The translations under genes were made by a program, and so were the position numbers. A model generated the notes under the pieces. The model worked only from the letters and a program-made list of their open reading frames with translations, did no database searches and had not been told where the DNA came from. Source: Gammaproteobacteria bacterium (GTDB taxonomy: Bacteria; Pseudomonadota; Gammaproteobacteria; SZUA-229). From it: a stretch of DNA of 64,000 nucleotides. This document shows, piece after piece, positions 51,300 through 64,000 of the stretch. The stretch spans positions 1-64,000 of the forward strand of contig JALWPK010000062.1 of NCBI GenBank assembly GCA_026995045.1, given 5' to 3'. How positions within the stretch are numbered: position 1 is the first letter of the stretch; each line of letters opens with the position of its first letter.

Positions 51300-52262
51300 A
51301 TGGAACAGCTAAGCAACCTGAAAGCAATACTGCATTCGAAGCGCGCCAACATTTTCTATCTAGAGAAATGCCGCTTGATGCAAAAAGACGGGCGCGTACT
51401 TTACCTGACAGATGAGCAGGATAAAAAGCAATACTGGAATATTCCCATTGCCAACACCACCGTCATCCTGCTCGGAACCGGCACATCAATTACACAGGCG
51501 GCTGCAAGAATGCTGGCTTCCGCCGGGGTGCTGATCGGTTTCTGTGGGGGCTGCGGCACGCCGTTGCTAATGGGCAATGAAATCGAATGGCTCACTCCTC
51601 AAAGTGAATACCGCCCCACTGAATATGTACAGGGCTGGCTGACATTCTGGTTTGACGAAACCAAACGGCTTCTGGCAGCCAAACGCTTTCAAACCCAGCG
51701 CATCGACTATATCAGGCGTGTCTGGAATAAAGACAAGGACTTGCAACAGGCGGGCTTTGACGCCAACGAAAAATCCGTCGCCGCCGCTCTGGATCACTTT
51801 TCCGCCAGAATCGAACAGGCGCACAACACCACACAGCTGCTGCTGACCGAAGCCGAACTCACTAAAAAACTTTACAAGACAGCTATCAACCACACTCGTA
51901 TGGGCGATTTTGTCCGGGACTACAACGGTGAAGACAAGGCAAACGCGTTCCTCAATCATGGAAACTATCTGGCCTACGGGCTGGGCGCAACAACGCTATG
52001 GGTGCTAGGCATTCCACATGGCTTTGCCGTCATGCACGGAAAAACACGCCGTGGCGCACTGGTATTCGATGTGGCAGACCTGATCAAGGACGCCATCATA
52101 CTGCCGTGGGCATTTGTTTGCGCCAGGGAAGACATGTCCGAACAGGATTTTCGCCAACAGGTATTACAAAAGTTTACCCAACACAAGGCGCTTGACTTCA
52201 TGTTTGAATGCGTCAAACAGGCGGCCCTGCAAACCAGGAGCAGCCATCAGGACGGCGAATAA
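51300..52262 (+). CDS. cas1: Cas1, type I-F integrase
   Basis: Spacer-acquisition integrase, which works with the Cas2 domain of Cas2-3. The sequence fits the I-F subfamily in length (320) and content. Active-site metal residues are a Glu in LTEAELTKKLY (E184 or E186), H246 in VMHGKTRRG and D260 in FDVADLIKD; the H-D spacing of 14 equals that of the Pseudomonas protein. The ribosome binding site is weak. Unlike standard I-F loci, its 3' end overlaps an antisense vapC by 16 bases instead of joining cas2-3. Confidence 0.95.
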   Translation: MEQLSNLKAILHSKRANIFYLEKCRLMQKDGRVLYLTDEQDKKQYWNIPIANTTVILLGTGTSITQAAARMLASAGVLIGFCGGCGTPLLMGNEIEWLTPQSEYRPTEYVQGWLTFWFDETKRLLAAKRFQTQRIDYIRRVWNKDKDLQQAGFDANEKSVAAALDHFSARIEQAHNTTQLLLTEAELTKKLYKTAINHTRMGDFVRDYNGEDKANAFLNHGNYLAYGLGATTLWVLGIPHGFAVMHGKTRRGALVFDVADLIKDAIILPWAFVCAREDMSEQDFRQQVLQKFTQHKALDFMFECVKQAALQTRSSHQDGE

Positions 52263-52615
52263 GCCATGTTCATTTCTTTTGCAACAGCCTGTAAACGCCG
52301 GTCTTTTGTCCACAACAATACATCGCCCGCCAATGCTGTTGATGCGAGCAGATACAAATCAACCAGGCCGATGCCTTTTCCAAACAGACGGTTCTTCTCC
52401 AAAAAATACATAGCCTCATCATGGTCGGCTTCATCCAGTCCCGGCAACGAGCCCCACAAGCTCAGGAGCTGCTTACGCTCCTTCAAATGGCCACATGCAA
52501 GTTCACCCAGCACCATGGAGTGCATACACACAACAGCCTCTTCAAGCAGCCTGGCCAGTCGCGTGTCGCCGGAACGCAAGAAATCAATCCAGACCGATGC
52601 ATCCACCAGAACCAT
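52247..52615 (-). CDS. vapC: VapC PIN-domain toxin
   Basis: PIN-domain ribonuclease toxin, 122 residues. Acidic catalytic residues are in LVDASVWIDFLR, LGELACGHL, GIGLVDLYLLAS and LWTKDRRLQ. It lies on the opposite strand between cas1 and cas2-3, and its last 16 bases overlap cas1. Its start shares one base with the vapB stop (TGATG). Confidence 0.93.
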   Translation of the reverse strand: MVLVDASVWIDFLRSGDTRLARLLEEAVVCMHSMVLGELACGHLKERKQLLSLWGSLPGLDEADHDEAMYFLEKNRLFGKGIGLVDLYLLASTALAGDVLLWTKDRRLQAVAKEMNMAYSPS

Positions 52616-52890: not shown

Positions 52891-55800
52891 GTGATCGTCA
52901 CCTTCGTTTCAGAATGTGAAAAAAAAGCATTAAACCGCACCCGCCGCGTACTGGACGCCTTCGCCAACCGCATCGGCAGCCGCACCTGGCAAACCGTCAT
53001 CACCGAAGAAGGCTTGCGGGCAGTGAAAAAACTGCTGCGTAAAACCGCCACCAAAAACACCGCCGTTTCCTGCCACTTGATTCGGAGCCGCAGTCGCAGT
53101 GAATTGTTGTGGGTGGTGGGGAATAAGAGCAAATTTAATGAGCAAGGGATTGTGCCTGCGAATATTACGGAAACCGAAATAGAGCAGTTTATGGATAAAT
53201 ATCAATGGAAAACCTTTGATGTTATTAAATATGCATCAGCAATCGCCGGACTGTTTCACGATTTTGGCAAGGCAACGGTTTTATTTCAAAGGAAAATAAA
53301 TCCCGATGAAAAAACACCAAACTACGAACCCTACCGGCATGAATGGATTTCATTTCGTTTATTTCAGGCATTTGTTGGAAAGCAGACGGATGAAGCATGG
53401 CTTAAAGCACTCAGTGATGTCAGCAATGAGCATTTTACTCACTGTTTCAAAGATGGATTAGATAAGGGTGACAAACCGAAAATATCGAATTTGCCCAAGT
53501 TTGCAAAACTTGTGGCGTGGTTGATTGTGACCCATCACAAACTCCCTGTTTACCCGGAATGGAAAGAAAACAACAAGCCTGATTTGAAATATGTCGACCA
53601 ATGGATGGACGAAAATTTTAATGCTTTGTGGAATTCACATAACTGTCACGATACCGATCAGCAAGACAGAATCACTGAAAACTGGCAATTTTGCGATTTA
53701 CCAACACAAAGCATGCAGTGGCGATCCAAAGCCTGTACATTGGCTTCTGAGGCAATGGCCAACATGAAGCCCTGGCTGAACAATGAAACAGATTGGTTGC
53801 ATGAGCAATTGTTTACCACTCATTTATCTCGCCTCAGTTTGATTCTGGCAGATCATTATTATTCTTCGCTTAAATTTGACCAGTTGCGAGCAATAAAGGC
53901 CGGACAATGGCGCAATCCGAATTACCTGGTTTATGCCAATACAGATTGGCTTGATGGAAAAAAACAATACAAACAGCAACTGGATGAACACTTGATTGCA
54001 GTATCACATTTTACTGAAAAAATTGTTACGGATTTAAAAAAACTAAATCACAGCTTGGAGCCATTGGAGTCCAATGAGGCATTAACAGAAAAAGCAGGAT
54101 TCAATGAACCTGATAAAGAGAAGAAGAAAAAAATAATAGAAGAATTTGGCTGGCAGGATAATGCCACTAAATTAGTAGCCAAAGTTGGCAAGGAAGCTAT
54201 AAATAAAGGTTTTTTTGGCATCAACCTGGCTTCAACTGGCAAGGGCAAAACACGCGCGAATGCCAGAATTATGACAGCGCTTGGAGAGCAAACCGGACGT
54301 ATCCGTTTTAGTGTTGCGATGGGGCTGCGAGTATTAACCTTGCAAACAGGTAAAGAATTTCAGGATGAGCTGAATTTAACGGAAAAAGACTTAGCAATAG
54401 CGGTAGGCGGTATTGCTACGAAATTACTTTTTGAACAGAAACAAGATATTCAAAAAGCTGAATCAGATACCCCCCAATCAGCAGAAGAGTCTGGCAGTGA
54501 ATCACAAGAAGAATTAGTCGATGCCGATATGAAAGTACATTACTCAGGAGTGGAAAGTGAACATAGCCTGAGTCCGTGGACAAAAAATCAAAAAGGTTTG
54601 GATGCGCTGATTTCGGCGCCGGTTTTGGTCAGCACTATCGATCATTTGGTGCCGGCAACAGAAGGCACCAAAGGCGGTAAACATATTCCCGCTATGTTGC
54701 GTCTTTTGACTTCTGATCTGGTACTGGATGAACCGGATGATTTTGGTTTGAAGGATTTACCGGCCTTATGCCGCCTTGTGCATTGGGCAGGGATGTTGGG
54801 CAGTCGTGTGTTACTTTCCAGCGCCACACTACCCCCTGCAATGGTTTATGCACTTTTTCAGGCGTATCAAGCGGGTTGGACAGAGTATGCCAAAGCCAAT
54901 CTTGAAAGTAACACAGGCGAAATATTATGCGCTTGGTTTGATGAAAAAACTATCTGTGACGAAGATCGCGTTAAGGCGCTCAATAATTTCCAGGCAAAAC
55001 ATGAAAAACTGATAAATAAGCGCAAGAAATATTTACAGTCACTCCCGCCAAAACGCATTGCAGACATCATTGATGTTCCCGAATCCAACGATAAAAGCAT
55101 TATCGATAATATGGCGGATAGTATTTATGACAGCGCTCTTCGCCTGCACCAGGCGCATTGCCTGACCAATAACGATAAAACGCTTTCCATTGGTTTGGTG
55201 CGCATGGCAAATATCAATCCTTTGGTTGCCGTTGCCAAAGCCTTAATCAACAAAGAGGCGCCCGAAGATACTTGCATCCATTATTGTGTTTATCACAGTC
55301 GTTATCCATTAGCGATTCGCTCTGCCATTGAGAACAAGCTGGACAGATTACTCTATCGGAAGAATGAAGCATCTATCTGGCAACAATCTGAAATTCAACA
55401 CGCTATTGAACAGCAACCAAATGCAAAACATCATATTTTTATTGTGTTGGCATCTCCAGTAGCCGAGGTGGGACGCAATCATGACTATGACTGGGCGATT
55501 GTCGAACCTAGTTCGATGCGTTCCATCATTCAATTGGCTGGCAGGGTTTTAAGACACAGAGACAAAACACCCGATCAAACCAATATACTGTTACTCAATA
55601 AAAACTACAAAGCACTGGCTCACAAAGAAATCTGTTTTGAACGTCCTGGCTTCGAATCCAGTGATTTAATCGTGGAAAACCATGATCTGAATGAGATTTT
55701 GACCAAAGAACAATACCAGCAAATCACAGCTATCCATCGTATCTATCTGCCTGAAAACTATAGAGAGAACAACAAGCATCTTAAAAATCTGGCGCTTTTT

Positions 55801-56253
55801 GAACAACGCGCTTTGGCCAAACAATTGTTTGATGGTGAATACCCCGCTAAAGTGTGGTGGAAGAACCAGCCGCACTGGTGTGGTGAAGTACAACGCCAGC
55901 AACGCTTTCGGGATTCAAAAAAGGATGAAGCCTATTATTTGTGGTTTGATAATAACTCTACATCGCCCAAATGGCGTTGGAAAAATATGCAGGCATCTCC
56001 ACCGGAGTTTGGTGATTTGGCAATCATTGAAATGGCAGAACTTGAATTTAAAGGAAAAGGACAGGCTTTCTGGTTTGAACAGGATGCATTAACGGTTTAT
56101 CAACAACTGGCGGTTGATTTTGGCTGGCCGTTGACAAAAATCAGTGAGCGTTTTGGTCAAGTGAGGCTGATTGAATATGAAACAGGTGGCACAGCAACCT
56201 ACAACTTTCATCCGTATTTGGGTGTTTATCAAGAAATTGGGAGTTACTTATGA
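52891..56253 (+). CDS. cas3: Cas2-3 fusion, type I-F helicase-nuclease
   Basis: I-F specific fusion. Residues 1 to about 95 are the Cas2 domain; HD nuclease LFHDFGKATVLF (H123, D124) with RHEWISF; SF2 helicase with Walker A STGKGKT (448-454), DEPDD box from 613, and motif VI QLAGRVLRH from 881. It degrades target DNA and supports adaptation with Cas1. 1120 residues versus about 1076 in P. aeruginosa. The start is GTG with weak AGAGG. Codons up to about residue 80 are GC-rich (near 58%), then drop to about 37% or less. The stop overlaps csy1 (ATGA). Confidence 0.95.
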   Translation: MIVTFVSECEKKALNRTRRVLDAFANRIGSRTWQTVITEEGLRAVKKLLRKTATKNTAVSCHLIRSRSRSELLWVVGNKSKFNEQGIVPANITETEIEQFMDKYQWKTFDVIKYASAIAGLFHDFGKATVLFQRKINPDEKTPNYEPYRHEWISFRLFQAFVGKQTDEAWLKALSDVSNEHFTHCFKDGLDKGDKPKISNLPKFAKLVAWLIVTHHKLPVYPEWKENNKPDLKYVDQWMDENFNALWNSHNCHDTDQQDRITENWQFCDLPTQSMQWRSKACTLASEAMANMKPWLNNETDWLHEQLFTTHLSRLSLILADHYYSSLKFDQLRAIKAGQWRNPNYLVYANTDWLDGKKQYKQQLDEHLIAVSHFTEKIVTDLKKLNHSLEPLESNEALTEKAGFNEPDKEKKKKIIEEFGWQDNATKLVAKVGKEAINKGFFGINLASTGKGKTRANARIMTALGEQTGRIRFSVAMGLRVLTLQTGKEFQDELNLTEKDLAIAVGGIATKLLFEQKQDIQKAESDTPQSAEESGSESQEELVDADMKVHYSGVESEHSLSPWTKNQKGLDALISAPVLVSTIDHLVPATEGTKGGKHIPAMLRLLTSDLVLDEPDDFGLKDLPALCRLVHWAGMLGSRVLLSSATLPPAMVYALFQAYQAGWTEYAKANLESNTGEILCAWFDEKTICDEDRVKALNNFQAKHEKLINKRKKYLQSLPPKRIADIIDVPESNDKSIIDNMADSIYDSALRLHQAHCLTNNDKTLSIGLVRMANINPLVAVAKALINKEAPEDTCIHYCVYHSRYPLAIRSAIENKLDRLLYRKNEASIWQQSEIQHAIEQQPNAKHHIFIVLASPVAEVGRNHDYDWAIVEPSSMRSIIQLAGRVLRHRDKTPDQTNILLLNKNYKALAHKEICFERPGFESSDLIVENHDLNEILTKEQYQQITAIHRIYLPENYRENNKHLKNLALFEQRALAKQLFDGEYPAKVWWKNQPHWCGEVQRQQRFRDSKKDEAYYLWFDNNSTSPKWRWKNMQASPPEFGDLAIIEMAELEFKGKGQAFWFEQDALTVYQQLAVDFGWPLTKISERFGQVRLIEYETGGTATYNFHPYLGVYQEIGSYL

Positions 56254-57752
56254 GTGAGAGACAAATTGATGCAGAAGTAATAGCGATGAAAATCAAGGAA
56301 TATATTGTGGATCGAATGCAGTCAAAAGAGCTTCACTTGTTAAAAGACAAGCCTAAAGATGGTAAGGGTGGAATTATTCATAAACTGATAGCTAGAGTTG
56401 AATCTTTGGATTTATCAAATAATGAAAAAATTGAATATATAAAAAAGCAAAAAAAACCAAAGGAGCAATTAGATATGGATTTTCAAAAAGAAAAATATGA
56501 GAAGTTAATAGCATTATTTAGTGTCCCTCCTCATGAAATTATTGATGAGTATCATAATGCTATGAAAAAGATATCAAACGAACACGATATTTTTCTCTGG
56601 CTAGATCAAGCAGCAAAAAGAGCGGGTGGTAGAAAATATGCAACACATATTGCAAAATTAACACATTCTAATATCTCTACTAGCGCAAGCAGCTTCTATG
56701 ATAAAGATTTCAATATAGCCCCTAAATACCTGACAACATCTTCTATAGCCAAAAAAGATATTGATATTACAGGAAATGCGGGTGTTTCTCATTACGTTTC
56801 ATTATTAGATATAGAGCACAATGGTAACTCTTTGAGAGATTATGTATTAGCGGATGATACTAGTCCGTTTGATTATATTTCAAATAATATGGAAATTTCT
56901 AAAAAATGGATTATGGGTTTCAAACAAGTTTTTTCACCAAACAAACCATGCACACATTCATTGGCAAAACAGGTCTTTTTCCCTATTTGTGCTAAATCAT
57001 ATCACTATAATTTATTAGTTCCACTGGTATCTTCATCACTAGCTCATAATTTTCATAGGCTAAAAAAGAAAATAAGAGAAATAGCAATAACGGATAAATA
57101 TACTAATAACATAGTCGCCAGACTGCCAAACAATGCAGTTATAAAAGTCACAGCAAGCAGGGATGCACATAGAAATGTTTCTAAATTGCATGTAGATAGG
57201 AATGGAGAGCTCAATTTATTTTCAACACGACCTCCCATTTGGCAATCCAAGATAAAACCACCTATCTACAAAAAATCACTATTTAGCGACATACATAATT
57301 CAACCATAGCTACCGAAATTGATTATTTACGGGATTTTTTAATTCGCTTTAAAAAGCTGGATATCAGCATCAAAAAACCCAAGCGCAAACAACACATTGA
57401 CCGCTGGGTCAATAATATTATTGACGAATGTTTGTTCTATGTGGGAACCATCCAGAATTTACCTTCCGGCTGGTCGAAAAATGACCAGATCAAACTAAAA
57501 AAATCACACCAATACTTATTAGATCCTTATCGACTGGATGAGGATTTTCAATCAGAACGCCATAATAGAGACTGGCAAAGTTCGATTTGTATCGATTTTG
57601 CACAGTGGTTGAATTACCGGCTCAGAGATAAAGAATTTACGCCACAAGCGGAACATACCCGTTTATGGAAAAGAATGCTGGAACAACCGCTTCGGGAATA
57701 TATGGAGCCAGTTGAAGAAAAGATAAAACAAATGATGAAGGAAGCCGTATGA
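56250..57752 (+). CDS. csy1: Csy1 (Cas8f), Cascade large subunit
   Basis: Large subunit of the I-F Cascade, which recognises the PAM together with Csy2. Identified by position and by Csy1-like segments such as ISTSASSFYDKDFN, SSLAHNFHRLKKKIREIA and LPSGWSKNDQIKLKKSHQY. At 500 residues it is longer than the 434 of P. aeruginosa Csy1; the extra seems to be a charged N-terminal stretch. The first 1100 bases are the most AT-rich coding DNA in the window (some lines about 25% GC). ATGA overlaps on both sides. Confidence 0.88.
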   Translation: MSERQIDAEVIAMKIKEYIVDRMQSKELHLLKDKPKDGKGGIIHKLIARVESLDLSNNEKIEYIKKQKKPKEQLDMDFQKEKYEKLIALFSVPPHEIIDEYHNAMKKISNEHDIFLWLDQAAKRAGGRKYATHIAKLTHSNISTSASSFYDKDFNIAPKYLTTSSIAKKDIDITGNAGVSHYVSLLDIEHNGNSLRDYVLADDTSPFDYISNNMEISKKWIMGFKQVFSPNKPCTHSLAKQVFFPICAKSYHYNLLVPLVSSSLAHNFHRLKKKIREIAITDKYTNNIVARLPNNAVIKVTASRDAHRNVSKLHVDRNGELNLFSTRPPIWQSKIKPPIYKKSLFSDIHNSTIATEIDYLRDFLIRFKKLDISIKKPKRKQHIDRWVNNIIDECLFYVGTIQNLPSGWSKNDQIKLKKSHQYLLDPYRLDEDFQSERHNRDWQSSICIDFAQWLNYRLRDKEFTPQAEHTRLWKRMLEQPLREYMEPVEEKIKQMMKEAV

Positions 57753-58942
57753 GCCAATACCTATTGATAAACCATATTCAGGTACAGGGCGCCAATGCTG
57801 TATCCGGGTTTACCTGGGGATTCCCCGCGATTACCCACTTTCTAGGTTTTGTACACAATCTGAATAGAAAAATTGCTAACAAGGAGAAGTTCAAAGGTAT
57901 TCGATTGAATGGATGCGCTGTTATTGCGCATTCACATCAGGTGCATACCTACGCATTTAACCAGTTTGTGCAAAACAGAACGACTGCATTTCAATACAAA
58001 GAGCAATCGAAATATAAAGTGGGAACGCCGCCAGTTATTGAAGAAGGTAAGATGGATATGGATATTTCCTTACTCATCGCTTGTGAAGGCAATATTGGCG
58101 GCGATAGAAAAGAGGCGTTTATTCAGTGGCTTGAAACCATTTGTCAACGACAACGTCTGGCTGGCGGAACCATTTTAAACATTGCCGCTATCAATCTTTT
58201 TAGTGTTGAAGGTGAAAACAGCCGAAATAATTTACGCGCCATGATACGTCAATTATTGCCCGGTTTTGTACTGCTCGATAGATCTGCTTATCTGGAAAAG
58301 CATTTTGACTCGTTACAAGAAAAAAATCCTGAAGCAGAAGTGTTCCATACCTGGATGGATTTTATCACCTTAAAACAAAAAGCACGACCTGTTTATGACT
58401 TGATCAATCGACACCTGACTCAAATGTCTGAAAAGCAGACTGACAGTGATGAAGCACAAAAATTGTTAGAACAATGGCAACAGCATTTAGACGAGCCTTA
58501 TGAATCAGAAAAAATACCGGATGAATTGAAAAACTATTTCGCCGGGATTGAGGAAACAAAAAATAACAAAAAACTTTTAGCCCAATGGGCGTCTTATTGT
58601 GAACCAAATGAAAAAACCGATGCTGTTTGGGAATACATCAAAAAGCCAGAGCCGGGCTTTCTGGTGCCGATTATGACCGGTTACAAAGCCATTTCACCTG
58701 TTTATAAAAATCACAAAGTGGCTAATACGCGAGACAGCGAAACCGATGTCTGTTTTGTTGAAGCGGTACACACTATTGGTGAATGGCAAGGTGTCCATCG
58801 GATAAAAGATGAAACCTTGTTAAAACAAACCCTTTGGGATTACCACTACGAAAACAACTGGTATTTATGCCGTCAAAAAACCGTAGATGAATTGACGCAT
58901 AGCAACCAAAATGAAGAACCCTTGAATGACGATTATTCTTAA
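57749..58942 (+). CDS. csy2: Csy2 (Cas5f), Cascade subunit
   Basis: Cas5-type subunit that caps the 5' handle of crRNA. The start MSQYLLINHIQVQGANAVSG FTWGFP is highly typical of Csy2, as are LNGCAVIAHSHQVHTYAFNQ and the C-terminal SETDVCFVEAVHTIGEW. At 397 residues it exceeds the usual 320-340. The extra length is an acidic helical insert around residues 215-290 (QKLLEQWQQHLDEPYESEKI). Confidence 0.9.
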   Translation: MSQYLLINHIQVQGANAVSGFTWGFPAITHFLGFVHNLNRKIANKEKFKGIRLNGCAVIAHSHQVHTYAFNQFVQNRTTAFQYKEQSKYKVGTPPVIEEGKMDMDISLLIACEGNIGGDRKEAFIQWLETICQRQRLAGGTILNIAAINLFSVEGENSRNNLRAMIRQLLPGFVLLDRSAYLEKHFDSLQEKNPEAEVFHTWMDFITLKQKARPVYDLINRHLTQMSEKQTDSDEAQKLLEQWQQHLDEPYESEKIPDELKNYFAGIEETKNNKKLLAQWASYCEPNEKTDAVWEYIKKPEPGFLVPIMTGYKAISPVYKNHKVANTRDSETDVCFVEAVHTIGEWQGVHRIKDETLLKQTLWDYHYENNWYLCRQKTVDELTHSNQNEEPLNDDYS

Positions 58943-58962: not shown

Positions 58963-60030
58963 ATGAGCGATAAAACAATACCCACACCCAGCATGTTATC
59001 TTTCGAACGCAAACTGGAATGTTCCGATGGCTTGATGTTTTCCGGAAATTGGAAGGATTTAGACAAAAATTCAAAAGAAGCATGGCATCCAATTATAATT
59101 GGAAATCCACGCACTAACAGAGGGACACAGGCTATGTTCATGAAAGAAGGTGAACGTGCCGATATTATCAAGCCAAATATTCTCGAAGGTGATTATGCAT
59201 ATCTGCCAATGGATCAAGATGCTTTAAAACTCAGCTTTACTCTAAGAGTTGTTGGCAATTTAGGCAAACCCTTTGCCTGCAACAAACCTGACTTTGCAGA
59301 GGCAATAGAGAAAAAGGTCAGCGAGTTTAATAAATCAGAAAATATAAAAGACTTGGCCTTCCGTTATGCCTATAACATTGCAAATGGTCGTTTTTTATGG
59401 CGCAACCGTGTAGGCGCAGAACAAATTGAAATTAGAGTTAAGCACCAATCCGGTGAAGAACCTTTTAAATTCAATGCCTATGATTTTTCATTAAATGATT
59501 TTGATAAAAATAGTGATCATTCAGACTTGCTAAAACTGGCTGATCTAATCAAAAACGGTTTACTGGGAGATGATGAAACATTTGTACTGCTCGATGTGGC
59601 CGCCTATGTCAAATTAGGCAAAGGGCAACATGTTTACCCATCACAGGAAATGAATATGAGAGAAAAAAAGAAAAGGTTATTCAAGTTAAATGATTGTGCA
59701 GCTATGCACAATGTCAAAATAGGCAACGCCATTCGCACCATAGATTCCTGGTATGGCGATACCATGCTCATTAAAGTGGGAGGAAAAGATAAGAAAGATA
59801 AAAATAAAACAGAGACTATTGCTATTGATTCAGAATCCAAGCATCCCATTGCGATTGAACCCTATGGTTCTGTTACTCAACATGGCCGGGCTTACAGACC
59901 GACGAAAATCGATCTTTATACCTTGATGATGGACTGGGTGAATAATAAACAAATAGAAGAAAACCAACAGAAGTTTGTTGTTGCCAACCTGATTCGTGGC
60001 GGTGTCTTTGGTGGAGATGCAGAAGGATGA
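58963..60030 (+). CDS. csy3: Csy3 (Cas7f), Cascade backbone subunit
   Basis: Backbone protein, six copies of which line the crRNA spacer. Csy3-like segments: MLSFERKLECSDGLMFSGNW, ASVARYN-type region replaced by LAFRYAYNIANGRFLWRNRV, and IRTIDSWYGD. 355 residues, near the family size (342). GGAG ribosome binding site; 20 bases after csy2, the only real gap in the interference operon, which may allow separate high-level translation. Confidence 0.92.
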   Translation: MSDKTIPTPSMLSFERKLECSDGLMFSGNWKDLDKNSKEAWHPIIIGNPRTNRGTQAMFMKEGERADIIKPNILEGDYAYLPMDQDALKLSFTLRVVGNLGKPFACNKPDFAEAIEKKVSEFNKSENIKDLAFRYAYNIANGRFLWRNRVGAEQIEIRVKHQSGEEPFKFNAYDFSLNDFDKNSDHSDLLKLADLIKNGLLGDDETFVLLDVAAYVKLGKGQHVYPSQEMNMREKKKRLFKLNDCAAMHNVKIGNAIRTIDSWYGDTMLIKVGGKDKKDKNKTETIAIDSESKHPIAIEPYGSVTQHGRAYRPTKIDLYTLMMDWVNNKQIEENQQKFVVANLIRGGVFGGDAEG

Positions 60031-60623
60031 AATACTATCAGGACATAACCCTGCTGCCCGATGCCGAGATCACCCTCGGCTTCATCTGGCAAAAAGTCTA
60101 TCAACAAGTTCATATCGCCTTGGCAGAAAATAAAATAGGCGAAAATCAGTCTGCCATTGCCGTTGCTTTTCCCAAATATGGCAGCAAGGGGTTTCCGTTA
60201 GGCAATAAATTACGTTTACTTGCTGATAACGAATCTCAACTGGAGAACCTGGCTGCGGAGAAATGGCTGAGCAAACTAAATGACTATTGTCATATTAAAT
60301 CTATCAAGGCCACACCCACAGATATCAACATATATGCCTGCTATAAGCGGAAGCAGTTTAAAAGCAATTTGCTAAAGGAAGCACAGAGGCGCGCACAATA
60401 CAAAAACGAGCCGCTAGAAGACGCCTTGGCGCATTTTCAGCACTATGAGACTGCGTGCGATTTACCCTATATCAATATGACCAGTTTATCGATGCCGGAA
60501 ACCCAAAACGCCAGCAACCATTTCAGGCTATTTATCGAACAGGAACTGTACGACAAGCAGCGGGAAGGTCAATTTAATTGCTATGGTTTGAGTAAAACAG
60601 CTACCGTACCGCATTTTGACTAA
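60027..60623 (+). CDS. csy4: Csy4 (Cas6f), crRNA-processing endonuclease
   Basis: Cuts pre-crRNA at the 3' base of the repeat hairpin and stays bound to it. The catalytic His29 is in the same position as in P. aeruginosa Csy4 (WQKVYQQVH). The arginine-rich helix is KRKQFKSNLLKEAQRRAQYK (about 107-126); the conserved serine is probably S153 or S155 in INMTSLSMPE; then NHFRLFIEQ. 198 residues. ATGA overlap with csy3. Confidence 0.93.
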   Translation: MKYYQDITLLPDAEITLGFIWQKVYQQVHIALAENKIGENQSAIAVAFPKYGSKGFPLGNKLRLLADNESQLENLAAEKWLSKLNDYCHIKSIKATPTDINIYACYKRKQFKSNLLKEAQRRAQYKNEPLEDALAHFQHYETACDLPYINMTSLSMPETQNASNHFRLFIEQELYDKQREGQFNCYGLSKTATVPHFD

Positions 60624-60653
60624 AAAATTCCCAAGCTCTTTTACAATCCGGAA

Positions 60654-60666
60654 AATCAATAAGTTA
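60654..60666 (+). promoter_or_regulatory. IHF consensus site in the leader
   Basis: AATCAATAAGTTA fits WATCAA-N4-TTR with no mismatch. IHF bending of the leader is required for spacer integration in I-E and I-F systems studied so far. Confidence 0.65.
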
Positions 60667-60717
60667 CAACAGCCCACAAAAATTGGGTTAAATCATACAT
60701 ATCCTGTTAAGTTGCTG

Positions 60718-60745
60718 TTGTAACTTGTTTTTTTGCATTTATAAT
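60718..60745 (+). promoter_or_regulatory. Candidate array promoter
   Basis: TTGTAA and TATAAT with 16 bases between. The predicted start (about 60752) falls on the first bases of repeat 1, leaving its hairpin and 5' handle intact. Placement is inferred from consensus only. Confidence 0.5.
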
Positions 60746-60748
60746 ACT

Positions 60749-63417
60749 CTTCACTGCCGCACAGGCAGCTTAGAAAGCCTTCGGCTTCGGCCGCGCGTGA
60801 GACTTCGTCTTCACTGCCGCACAGGCAGCTTAGAAATTGTTTTTGAATGCTTATGCAGCCCTTTCCCCCTTCACTGCCGCACAGGCAGCTTAGAAACGGT
60901 ATCGGGATGCAGTGGGATGGAAGCCGAACTTCACTGCCGCACAGGCAGCTTAGAAAGTTACAGGGCGTTGGTTGAGATGCGCTGGCAACTTCACTGCCGC
61001 ACAGGCAGCTTAGAAAGCCGCCACCACTGCCAAGCTGTTTTATGTGATCTTCACTGCCGCACAGGCAGCTTAGAAAGAACGCAGCGATGTGTATGACGCC
61101 GACGAGGTCTTCACTGCCGCACAGGCAGCTTAGAAAATGCTCGGCAATCATTTCGTCGGTTGGGTTCGCTTCACTGCCGCACAGGCAGCTTAGAAATCCA
61201 GACATCGTTCAGTGTTTAGTCACCCGATCTTCACTGCCGCACAGGCAGCTTAGAAAACATAGCGGGCCGGGCCGCGGCGGATGATGTTCTTCACTGCCGC
61301 ACAGGCAGCTTAGAAAAGGAAAAACGATACTGGAGGCCATAGCATGACCTTCACTGCCGCACAGGCAGCTTAGAAACAAACCGGCCGCAAACACAGCTTG
61401 CGCAACTTGCTTCACTGCCGCACAGGCAGCTTAGAAATCGCTCAGCGCATCCGACGGCGTGTTGTCCACCTTCACTGCCGCACAGGCAGCTTAGAAAACC
61501 GACTAAACCCTGGTAACCGACTCGGTTTGCTTCACTGCCGCACAGGCAGCTTAGAAAGCCTTCAGCATCCGCTGCGGGTTCCAGTACGACTTCACTGCCG
61601 CACAGGCAGCTTAGAAAAATGCCGGTCAGGCTCGCCGGCGCAACCATATCTTCACTGCCGCACAGGCAGCTTAGAAAGCCAAACGCTTCCACGTCTATGG
61701 CGCGCAGGTCTTCACTGCCGCACAGGCAGCTTAGAAAACGCAAAAACGCGAAACCAAACAGGTCAACATCTTCACTGCCGCACAGGCAGCTTAGAAAATA
61801 GACGTGGAAGCGTTTGGCGGCCGAACCATCTTCACTGCCGCACAGGCAGCTTAGAAAAGTTATCAATGCACCACGAAATTGGCGGGTACCTTCACTGCCG
61901 CACAGGCAGCTTAGAAAGTCAACGCAGGTGTGGGTTAATATCTGGAATACTTCACTGCCGCACAGGCAGCTTAGAAACCAAACACGAGGTGTTCGACGCC
62001 ACCGTTTATCTTCACTGCCGCACAGGCAGCTTAGAAAAAACAGCGCGGCGAGGTCAAGCGCCTGTTTCACTTCACTGCCGCACAGGCAGCTTAGAAAAGA
62101 ACAGCGCGCGCAGGTCGCGGGGCAGTTTCCTTCACTGCCGCACAGGCAGCTTAGAAAAGAAGCCGAGCAGCGCCTTGAGGTGGCCGCCCCTTCACTGCCG
62201 CACAGGCAGCTTAGAAAGAACAGGATGCGCTGAACTACGAGGCCAAACTCTTCACTGCCGCACAGGCAGCTTAGAAAATGACAAAATCGGTTGGTGAGAT
62301 TTTGCATTCCTTCACTGCCGCACAGGCAGCTTAGAAATGCATAAACTCATCTGTCATAGTCATGGCCATCTTCACTGCCGCACAGGCAGCTTAGAAACAA
62401 TGAAAAATCGGACTCGTTAGAAAACAATGACTTCACTGCCGCACAGGCAGCTTAGAAATTGCGAATGTACTCCGGCTCGACAAACACATTCTTCACTGCC
62501 GCACAGGCAGCTTAGAAACCATAGCTCTTTCTGGAAGTCGATGTTTTTCTCTTCACTGCCGCACAGGCAGCTTAGAAATTCCGGCAACGTCTTGCGCGTC
62601 GGGTCGAACACTTCACTGCCGCACAGGCAGCTTAGAAAACCAACAAACAACTGCAACGCGCCCAGCAGCACTTCACTGCCGCACAGGCAGCTTAGAAAAG
62701 CCGGATGTGGAGCCGCCGACGTTGTGGATTCTTCACTGCCGCACAGGCAGCTTAGAAATCGACAAATGATTCTTCAGGAAACACGCATATCTTCACTGCC
62801 GCACAGGCAGCTTAGAAAACCAGCCCGCCGTCCACGTCGGCCAACCCGCCCTTCACTGCCGCACAGGCAGCTTAGAAATGACGGATGCCGCGACCTTCGC
62901 GCTGAATGATCTTCACTGCCGCACAGGCAGCTTAGAAAACACGAATGGCGAATCATGCCAGTAGAGTTTGCTTCACTGCCGCACAGGCAGCTTAGAAATT
63001 GTGGCGTCGCTCCTGAGCGAGCAGGTGGTCCTTCACTGCCGCACAGGCAGCTTAGAAATGTCGAGCAAGTACGACATCACCGCCGACGTTCTTCACTGCC
63101 GCACAGGCAGCTTAGAAACATGAAAGCCGTGCTTAATTACACCAGCAAACCTTCACTGCCGCACAGGCAGCTTAGAAATGGTTGCTGCGGCGGCAACAGC
63201 CGCAACGTTTCTTCACTGCCGCACAGGCAGCTTAGAAAGCGAAGTCTTGCCCGACTGGTTTCAGGCCGCCTTCACTGCCGCACAGACAGCTTAGAAAACT
63301 TGAAATAGGCTTTTATTGGTCTGTTAGTTCTTCACTGCCGCACAGGCAGCTTAGAAATCCACGTCCCATTCCGCTTGCTTCTGGATACCCTTCACTGCCG
63401 CACAGGCAGCTAAGGAA
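60749..63417 (+). CRISPR. Type I-F CRISPR array, 45 repeats and 44 spacers
   Basis: Repeats of 28 bases: first half CTTCACTGCCGCAC, second half AGGCAGCTTAGAAA. The hairpin is CTGCC-GCACA-GGCAG, and Csy4 cutting after it would leave the eight-base handle CTTAGAAA. Repeats are identical except the 43rd (63270, G to A in the stem) and the last (63390, ending GCTAAGGAA). Spacers are 32 bases, except two of 33 (before 61410 and 62431) and one of 31 (before 63270). Transcription is from the csy4 side. Spacers 16 and 18 overlap on opposite strands. No match of a spacer to the rest of the window was noticed, but this was not searched exhaustively. Confidence 0.98.
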
Positions 63418-63563: not shown

Positions 63564-63890
63564 TCATGATTTTGACCAGAACACCCGGTGATCAGCTATG
63601 ATGTTCTGTTTTAAATCTGCATTGCTTAAACTGTCCCAATGAACAACATCAGTTTTGAAGGCTATCGGTAATGCCTCGATTGCATCGAACAATTGCGCAA
63701 AATGCGTTGATGTCATTTTTGGCGCAATAACCACCAAATCTATATCCGAACCAGGTGTGTAATCGCCCCTTGCGCGCGATCCATACAGCCACACTTGCTC
63801 AACTTCATCGAACCGCCTGAAAGTTTTGTCTAAATCTGACAGGATTCTATCGCTCAAACCCGTAGCAGCCTGCGTCAGTTGCACACCCAT
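63564..63890 (-). CDS. MNT-type nucleotidyltransferase antitoxin (MntA-like)
   Basis: Minimal nucleotidyltransferase of a HEPN/MNT toxin-antitoxin pair. The catalytic motif is LYGSRARGDYTPGSDIDLVV (GSx10DxD). Known MntA antitoxins inactivate the HEPN RNase by adding AMP. ATG at 63890 gives 108 residues and overlaps the end of the HEPN gene by 16 bases. Located about 150 bases beyond the trailer end of the array, convergent with it. Confidence 0.85.
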   Translation of the reverse strand: MGVQLTQAATGLSDRILSDLDKTFRRFDEVEQVWLYGSRARGDYTPGSDIDLVVIAPKMTSTHFAQLFDAIEALPIAFKTDVVHWDSLSNADLKQNIIADHRVFWSKS

Positions 63891-64000
63891 GCCTTCGCCT
63901 TGCTTGAAAGTTGTTGCAACGCTGTCAGTCCATGATCGCATACAAAATGATAAACTTCCTTTGCCAGCGATTCGTCATAGGTGTGGCTGGTTTGGTTACG
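63875..64000 (-). CDS. HEPN-domain toxin, HI0074/HepT-like (partial)
   Basis: Only the last 41 codons are in the window; the gene continues past the right edge. The visible part starts RNQTSHTYDESLAKEVYHFV, containing the HEPN RNase motif Rx4H (RNQTSH), and ends KAWVCN. The TSHTYDE pattern is typical of the HI0074 family. It precedes and overlaps the MNT gene, the usual order of the pair. Confidence 0.82.
   Translation of the reverse strand, partial: RNQTSHTYDESLAKEVYHFVCDHGLTALQQLSSKAKAWVCN

Follow-up and report, generated by a model that had tools for sequence, protein, structure and literature searches.

How does a single CRISPR (clustered regularly interspaced short palindromic repeats) array come to hold the same 21 bases in two spacers of opposite orientation, and what can such a pair tell about the capture of spacers? 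The question is raised by a type I-F CRISPR-Cas locus of a Gammaproteobacteria bacterium (lineage SZUA-229), located within positions 1 to 64,000 of contig JALWPK010000062.1 (assembly GCA_026995045.1; this whole stretch of 64,000 nucleotides (nt) is referred to as the window). In the array of this locus, nt 1-21 of spacer 16 (61678-61698) are the exact reverse complement of nt 1-21 of spacer 18 (61798-61818), and spacer 17, which sits between them, has no sequence in common with either. The two spacers merge without conflict into 43 nt, ATGGTTCGGCC GCCAAACGCTTCCACGTCTAT GGCGCGCAGGT (written continuously, ATGGTTCGGCCGCCAAACGCTTCCACGTCTATGGCGCGCAGGT). The parse of the array bears out what a first-pass annotation of the window had described, namely the reverse-complementary 21 nt, the 43-base merge and a total of 44 spacers. 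The 16/18 pair is the only overlapping pair in the array: between any other two spacers, matches on either strand reach 11 nt at most, and shuffling all spacers 200 times never produced one longer than 13 nt.

In the merged sequence, CC directly precedes each protospacer on its own strand; given the overlap, the chance of GG at positions 22-23 in both spacers is approximately 0.004, taking the GG frequency of the array itself. The same dinucleotide was found at an external target. When all 44 spacers were searched jointly in phage and plasmid records, only one real target family was identified, the primase of P2-like phages, which is matched by spacer 24 in the Burkholderia phages KS5, KL3, AP3, Carl1 and others, as well as in IMG/VR relatives. 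At these P2-like loci, CC precedes the protospacer (1-8 mismatches) in 79 of the 79 homologous sites tallied which, being homologous, are counted as one independent observation. Most mismatches to spacer 24 fall on every third position (5, 8, 11, 14, 17, 20, 23, 26, 29 and 32), with others at 10, 13, 22 and 2, a pattern for which synonymous change in the primase gene would largely account. The bacterium's own genome contains no close relative of the matched primase; a P2-like primase at 54% identity is present in one family relative (G042:C93, L095). CC is thus found 5' of the spacer-identical strand at all three independent sites, two of them read from the merge (spacers 16 and 18) and one from the external phage match (spacer 24). 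The published I-F protospacer adjacent motif (PAM) is GG 3' of the target-strand protospacer, equivalent to CC 5' of the spacer-identical strand (PMC4117759). Because the three sites agree with each other and with the published motif, the earlier claim that a CC PAM is readable from the array is right, and this result only confirms, for this array, a PAM that was already known.

The exact 21-nt overlap, the consistent merge, the CC on both sides, the CC at the spacer 24 target and the six intact I-F cas genes make it very likely that the pair records two captures from opposite strands of one CC-flanked site by an intact I-F system, that is, ordinary acquisition. The composition of the array points in the same direction, because 41 of the 44 spacers are 32 nt long (two are 33 nt and one is 31 nt) and the first spacer base shows an A/T excess (29/44, P = 0.006), both in agreement with I-F acquisition as published (PMC4117759, PMC5059440). 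The merge, with CC on both sides of the common 21 nt, leads us to infer that a single element supplied both spacers. The site would have the form 5'-CC-N21-GG-3', in which two PAMs point towards each other across 21 bp. Starting from one CC per strand, Cas1:Cas2-3 would measure inward by about 32 bp, yielding two spacers in opposite orientation with the 21 PAM-proximal bases in common. Because the leader is at the csy4 side, spacer 18 would have been integrated first, followed by 17 and then by 16.

An artefact of the array, whether by inversion, by misassembly or by integration of one prespacer in flipped orientation, is next to inconceivable: no point in its support was found, and a flipped copy would have all 32 nt and both ends in common, whereas the ends of spacers 16 and 18 differ by 11 nt and each lies beside CC. 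Furthermore, the repeats and flanking spacers are undisturbed, and the only exact copies of the 21-nt core in the bacterium's own genome are the two in the array. All three variants were rejected on the positions of the spacer ends. Alternatively, spacers 16 and 18 might come from two different elements that have a conserved 21-bp core in common, given that homologous sites are common in related phages (the spacer 24 site is an example) and that the target of the pair was not matched. For this, however, the conserved core would need to stop, at each of its two ends, precisely where a CC PAM is required, and coding-like statistics, though weak, extend in two frames along the whole length of the 43 nt; we consider this origin improbable.

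What weighs against two captures from one site is that none of the collections searched (IMG/VR, GTDB, phages, plasmids, the bacterium's own genome and its relatives) contained the merged site, so that the 43 nt are presumed, from the merge, to be contiguous in one molecule. The exact 21-mer core is absent from IMG/VR and from GTDB genomes. The merged 43-mer, which the first-pass annotation had proposed as a query, gave chance-level matches only in a blastn search of phages and plasmids. A 3-mismatch match in contig C2 of the own genome was dismissed as chance (no CC flank, not extending); no self-target was detected in that genome, which is roughly 83% complete, at the sensitivity used. Codon-degenerate patterns of the two coding-like frames (GSAAKRFHVYGAQ and LRAIDVEAFGGRT) had no match in IMG/VR; among relatives, the second frame had none in the order and the first none in 369 genomes of the class. 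Four matches of the degenerate patterns in genome contigs were judged to be chance (unrelated phyla, mostly dubious open reading frames (ORFs)). A tblastn search of both merged-site peptides against phages returned nothing, with the low power of a 13-amino-acid query. The merged peptide is also absent from KS5, KL3, AP3 and the P2-like loci, and the pair itself was not found in these phages or in the sampled P2-like loci and contigs, so the pair is not tied to the P2-like phages matched by spacer 24. The proposal that the same site was sampled repeatedly therefore stands in part: two captures are the best reading of the merge, and the target itself was matched in none of the collections searched.

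The remaining comparisons concerned other spacers and related arrays. Concatenated spacers compared to 54 family genomes gave weak matches of spacers 7, 32 and 36 in pyrG-, dnaG-, nadB- and hrpB-like housekeeping genes, which were rejected. For spacers 15, 17 and 19, the opening 22 nt are absent from IMG/VR. Four relatives have arrays with the repeat core of the present one, and none of the 73 spacers in them overlaps the pair by more than the 11-nt noise. Two spacers of family relatives, L130 spacer 4 (G002) and L131 spacer 6 (G013), have 14 nt in common in the same orientation, possibly because related invaders were their source.

The first-pass annotation had further read the pair as a sign of primed adaptation. 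We simulated arrays by drawing 44 CC-adjacent 32-mers randomly from a 37-kb phage and counting overlaps of at least 12 nt. A single 37-kb phage gave a mean of 1.0 overlaps per array, with at least one overlap in 65% of arrays; at least one overlap was obtained in 10% of arrays with ten such phages and in less than 1% with a hundred. The observed count (a single overlap in 946 pairs) is in line with random sampling of the one-phage pool of 37 kb and suggests that the spacers were drawn from a small pool of targets, roughly one to several phage genomes, or from a hot spot. Under primed or interference-driven capture, targeting by spacer 18 would bring Cas1:Cas2-3 to the same invader, and spacer 16 would be captured beside it. 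This agrees with spacer 16 being newer than spacer 18 and of opposite orientation, and even a single overlap would be unlikely if the target pool were large. However, random CC-sampling of one phage suffices for the count, and another spacer separates the two (P = 0.09 for a distance of at most two positions). In the published I-F model, target-stimulated capture runs 3'-5' along the non-target strand away from that target (PMC4117759). The GG that would serve spacer 16 is at nt 22-23 within the protospacer of spacer 18, whereas the translocation model favours the region 5' of its PAM; this geometry neither clearly fits nor excludes the model. No older mismatched spacer against the pair's element, which is known from the merge alone, was found, and the array order puts 18 before 16. 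As neither the count, nor the closeness, nor the PAM geometry is diagnostic, the claim of priming is not sustained, and we rate primed or interference-driven capture as quite possible, though short of probable.

Independent naive captures from a hot-spot or often-met element, neither spacer influencing the other, are a somewhat doubtful possibility: chance in a small target pool accounts for the overlap count and hot spots have been described for naive I-F capture, but naive capture is rare compared to interference-driven capture in wild-type I-F cells. Since naive capture is in general much less frequent than stimulated capture, a stimulated origin is a fair guess only. Taken together, the pair fits naive, interference-driven and primed capture without telling them apart.

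If both guides target the common 21 bp, the 8-nt seed of guide 18 would occupy positions 1-8 and that of guide 16 positions 14-21. With the seeds at opposite ends, one substitution in the core cannot strike both, and a PAM or seed mutation that allows escape from one guide would likely fall outside the seed of the other. The predicted 21-bp duplex between CRISPR RNAs (crRNAs) 16 and 18 (-40.9 kcal/mol) is the strongest of the 946 pairs, and the predicted precursor fold retains the repeat hairpins; such complementarity could regulate both guides. It is a very doubtful hypothesis that natural arrays keep opposite-strand overlapping spacers because such a pair resists escape in spite of the 21-bp crRNA:crRNA complementarity. 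More generally, overlapping opposite-strand spacers let a PAM be read from the array alone, without a target genome, and here the reading agrees with the external target; a scan of many arrays for such pairs could yield PAMs for systems with unsequenced invaders, together with estimates of target-pool size.

The operon upstream of the array is complete and canonical, with all six genes above the curated NCBIfam cut-offs (Table 1). Its csy1-csy2-csy3-csy4 effector genes, the cas2-cas3 fusion and the I-F cas1, as well as the 28-nt repeat with a short G+C stem and 32-nt spacers, identify it as type I-F. Alignments to solved homologues cover nearly the full length of Cas1, Cas2-3 and Csy4 and most of Csy1. 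In PADLOC, Cas1 reaches 475 bits with Cas1f and a higher score, 587 bits, with the Cas1fv model; Cas2-3 scores 1040 bits with the standard I-F model vs. 196 with Cas3fv. A VapC-like PIN-domain ORF (52247-52615, -; NCBIfam 35 bits, below cut-off) is located on the opposite strand between cas1 and cas2-3. The csy4-proximal end of the array is the leader end, and the altered repeats (the last one and one at 63270) are as expected for the old end. The leader region contains an imperfect inverted repeat (60653-60673 / 60714-60734, 21-nt arms, 86%) followed by a T run, which is either a terminator or a leader element (60653-60734). Just past the old end lies an MntA-like nucleotidyltransferase antitoxin ORF (63564-63941, -; 43 bits, below cut-off), whose HEPN toxin partner may be located beyond the end of the window.

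Table 1. Features of the type I-F CRISPR-Cas locus (positions in the window)
Feature	Position	Strand	Description
cas1 (type I-F)	51300..52262	+	TIGR03637, 474.8 bits
cas2-3 fusion (type I-F)	52891..56253	+	TIGR02562, 1039.6 bits, residues 1-1113
csy1 / cas8f	56250..57752	+	NCBIfam Csy1, 226.9 bits
csy2 / cas5f	57749..58942	+	NCBIfam Csy2, 262.8 bits
csy3 / cas7f	58963..60030	+	NCBIfam Csy3, 295.1 bits
csy4 / cas6f	60027..60623	+	NCBIfam Csy4, 152.5 bits
Leader region	60624..60748	+	csy4 to first repeat
CRISPR array	60749..63417	+	45 repeats of 28 nt (CTTCACTGCCGCACAGGCAGCTTAGAAA), 44 spacers
Spacer 16	61678..61709	+	32 nt, GCCAAACGCTTCCACGTCTATGGCGCGCAGGT
Spacer 17	61738..61769	+	between spacers 16 and 18
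Spacer 18	61798..61829	+	32 nt, ATAGACGTGGAAGCGTTTGGCGGCCGAACCAT
Spacer 24	62158..62189	+	primase gene match in P2-like Peduoviridae phages, best 31/32 nt
Degenerate last repeat	63390..63417	+	CTAAGGAA end; marks leader-distal, oldest end

Overall, the overlap is a real observation and its PAM was read correctly, priming was over-read, and the locus is an unremarkable example of a system already known. Overlapping protospacers have served to reason on the rules of capture before, on pMGB1 in Sulfolobus solfataricus (PMC4390879); that case involves a different subtype and many mapped captures, whereas here there is one pair whose target is not mapped. The closest comparison is with the type I-F (I-F1) systems of Pectobacterium atrosepticum and Pseudomonas aeruginosa, which have the same six genes with the Cas2-3 fusion, a 28-nt repeat with a CTGCC/GGCAG stem, 32-nt spacers, the same CC/GG PAM and captures from both strands. 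The differences are that Csy1 is approximately 65 residues longer at the N terminus than the solved P. aeruginosa Csy1, and that the first base of the repeat is C in 45 of 45 repeats, where four family relatives have G in their matching arrays, the repeat being otherwise identical.
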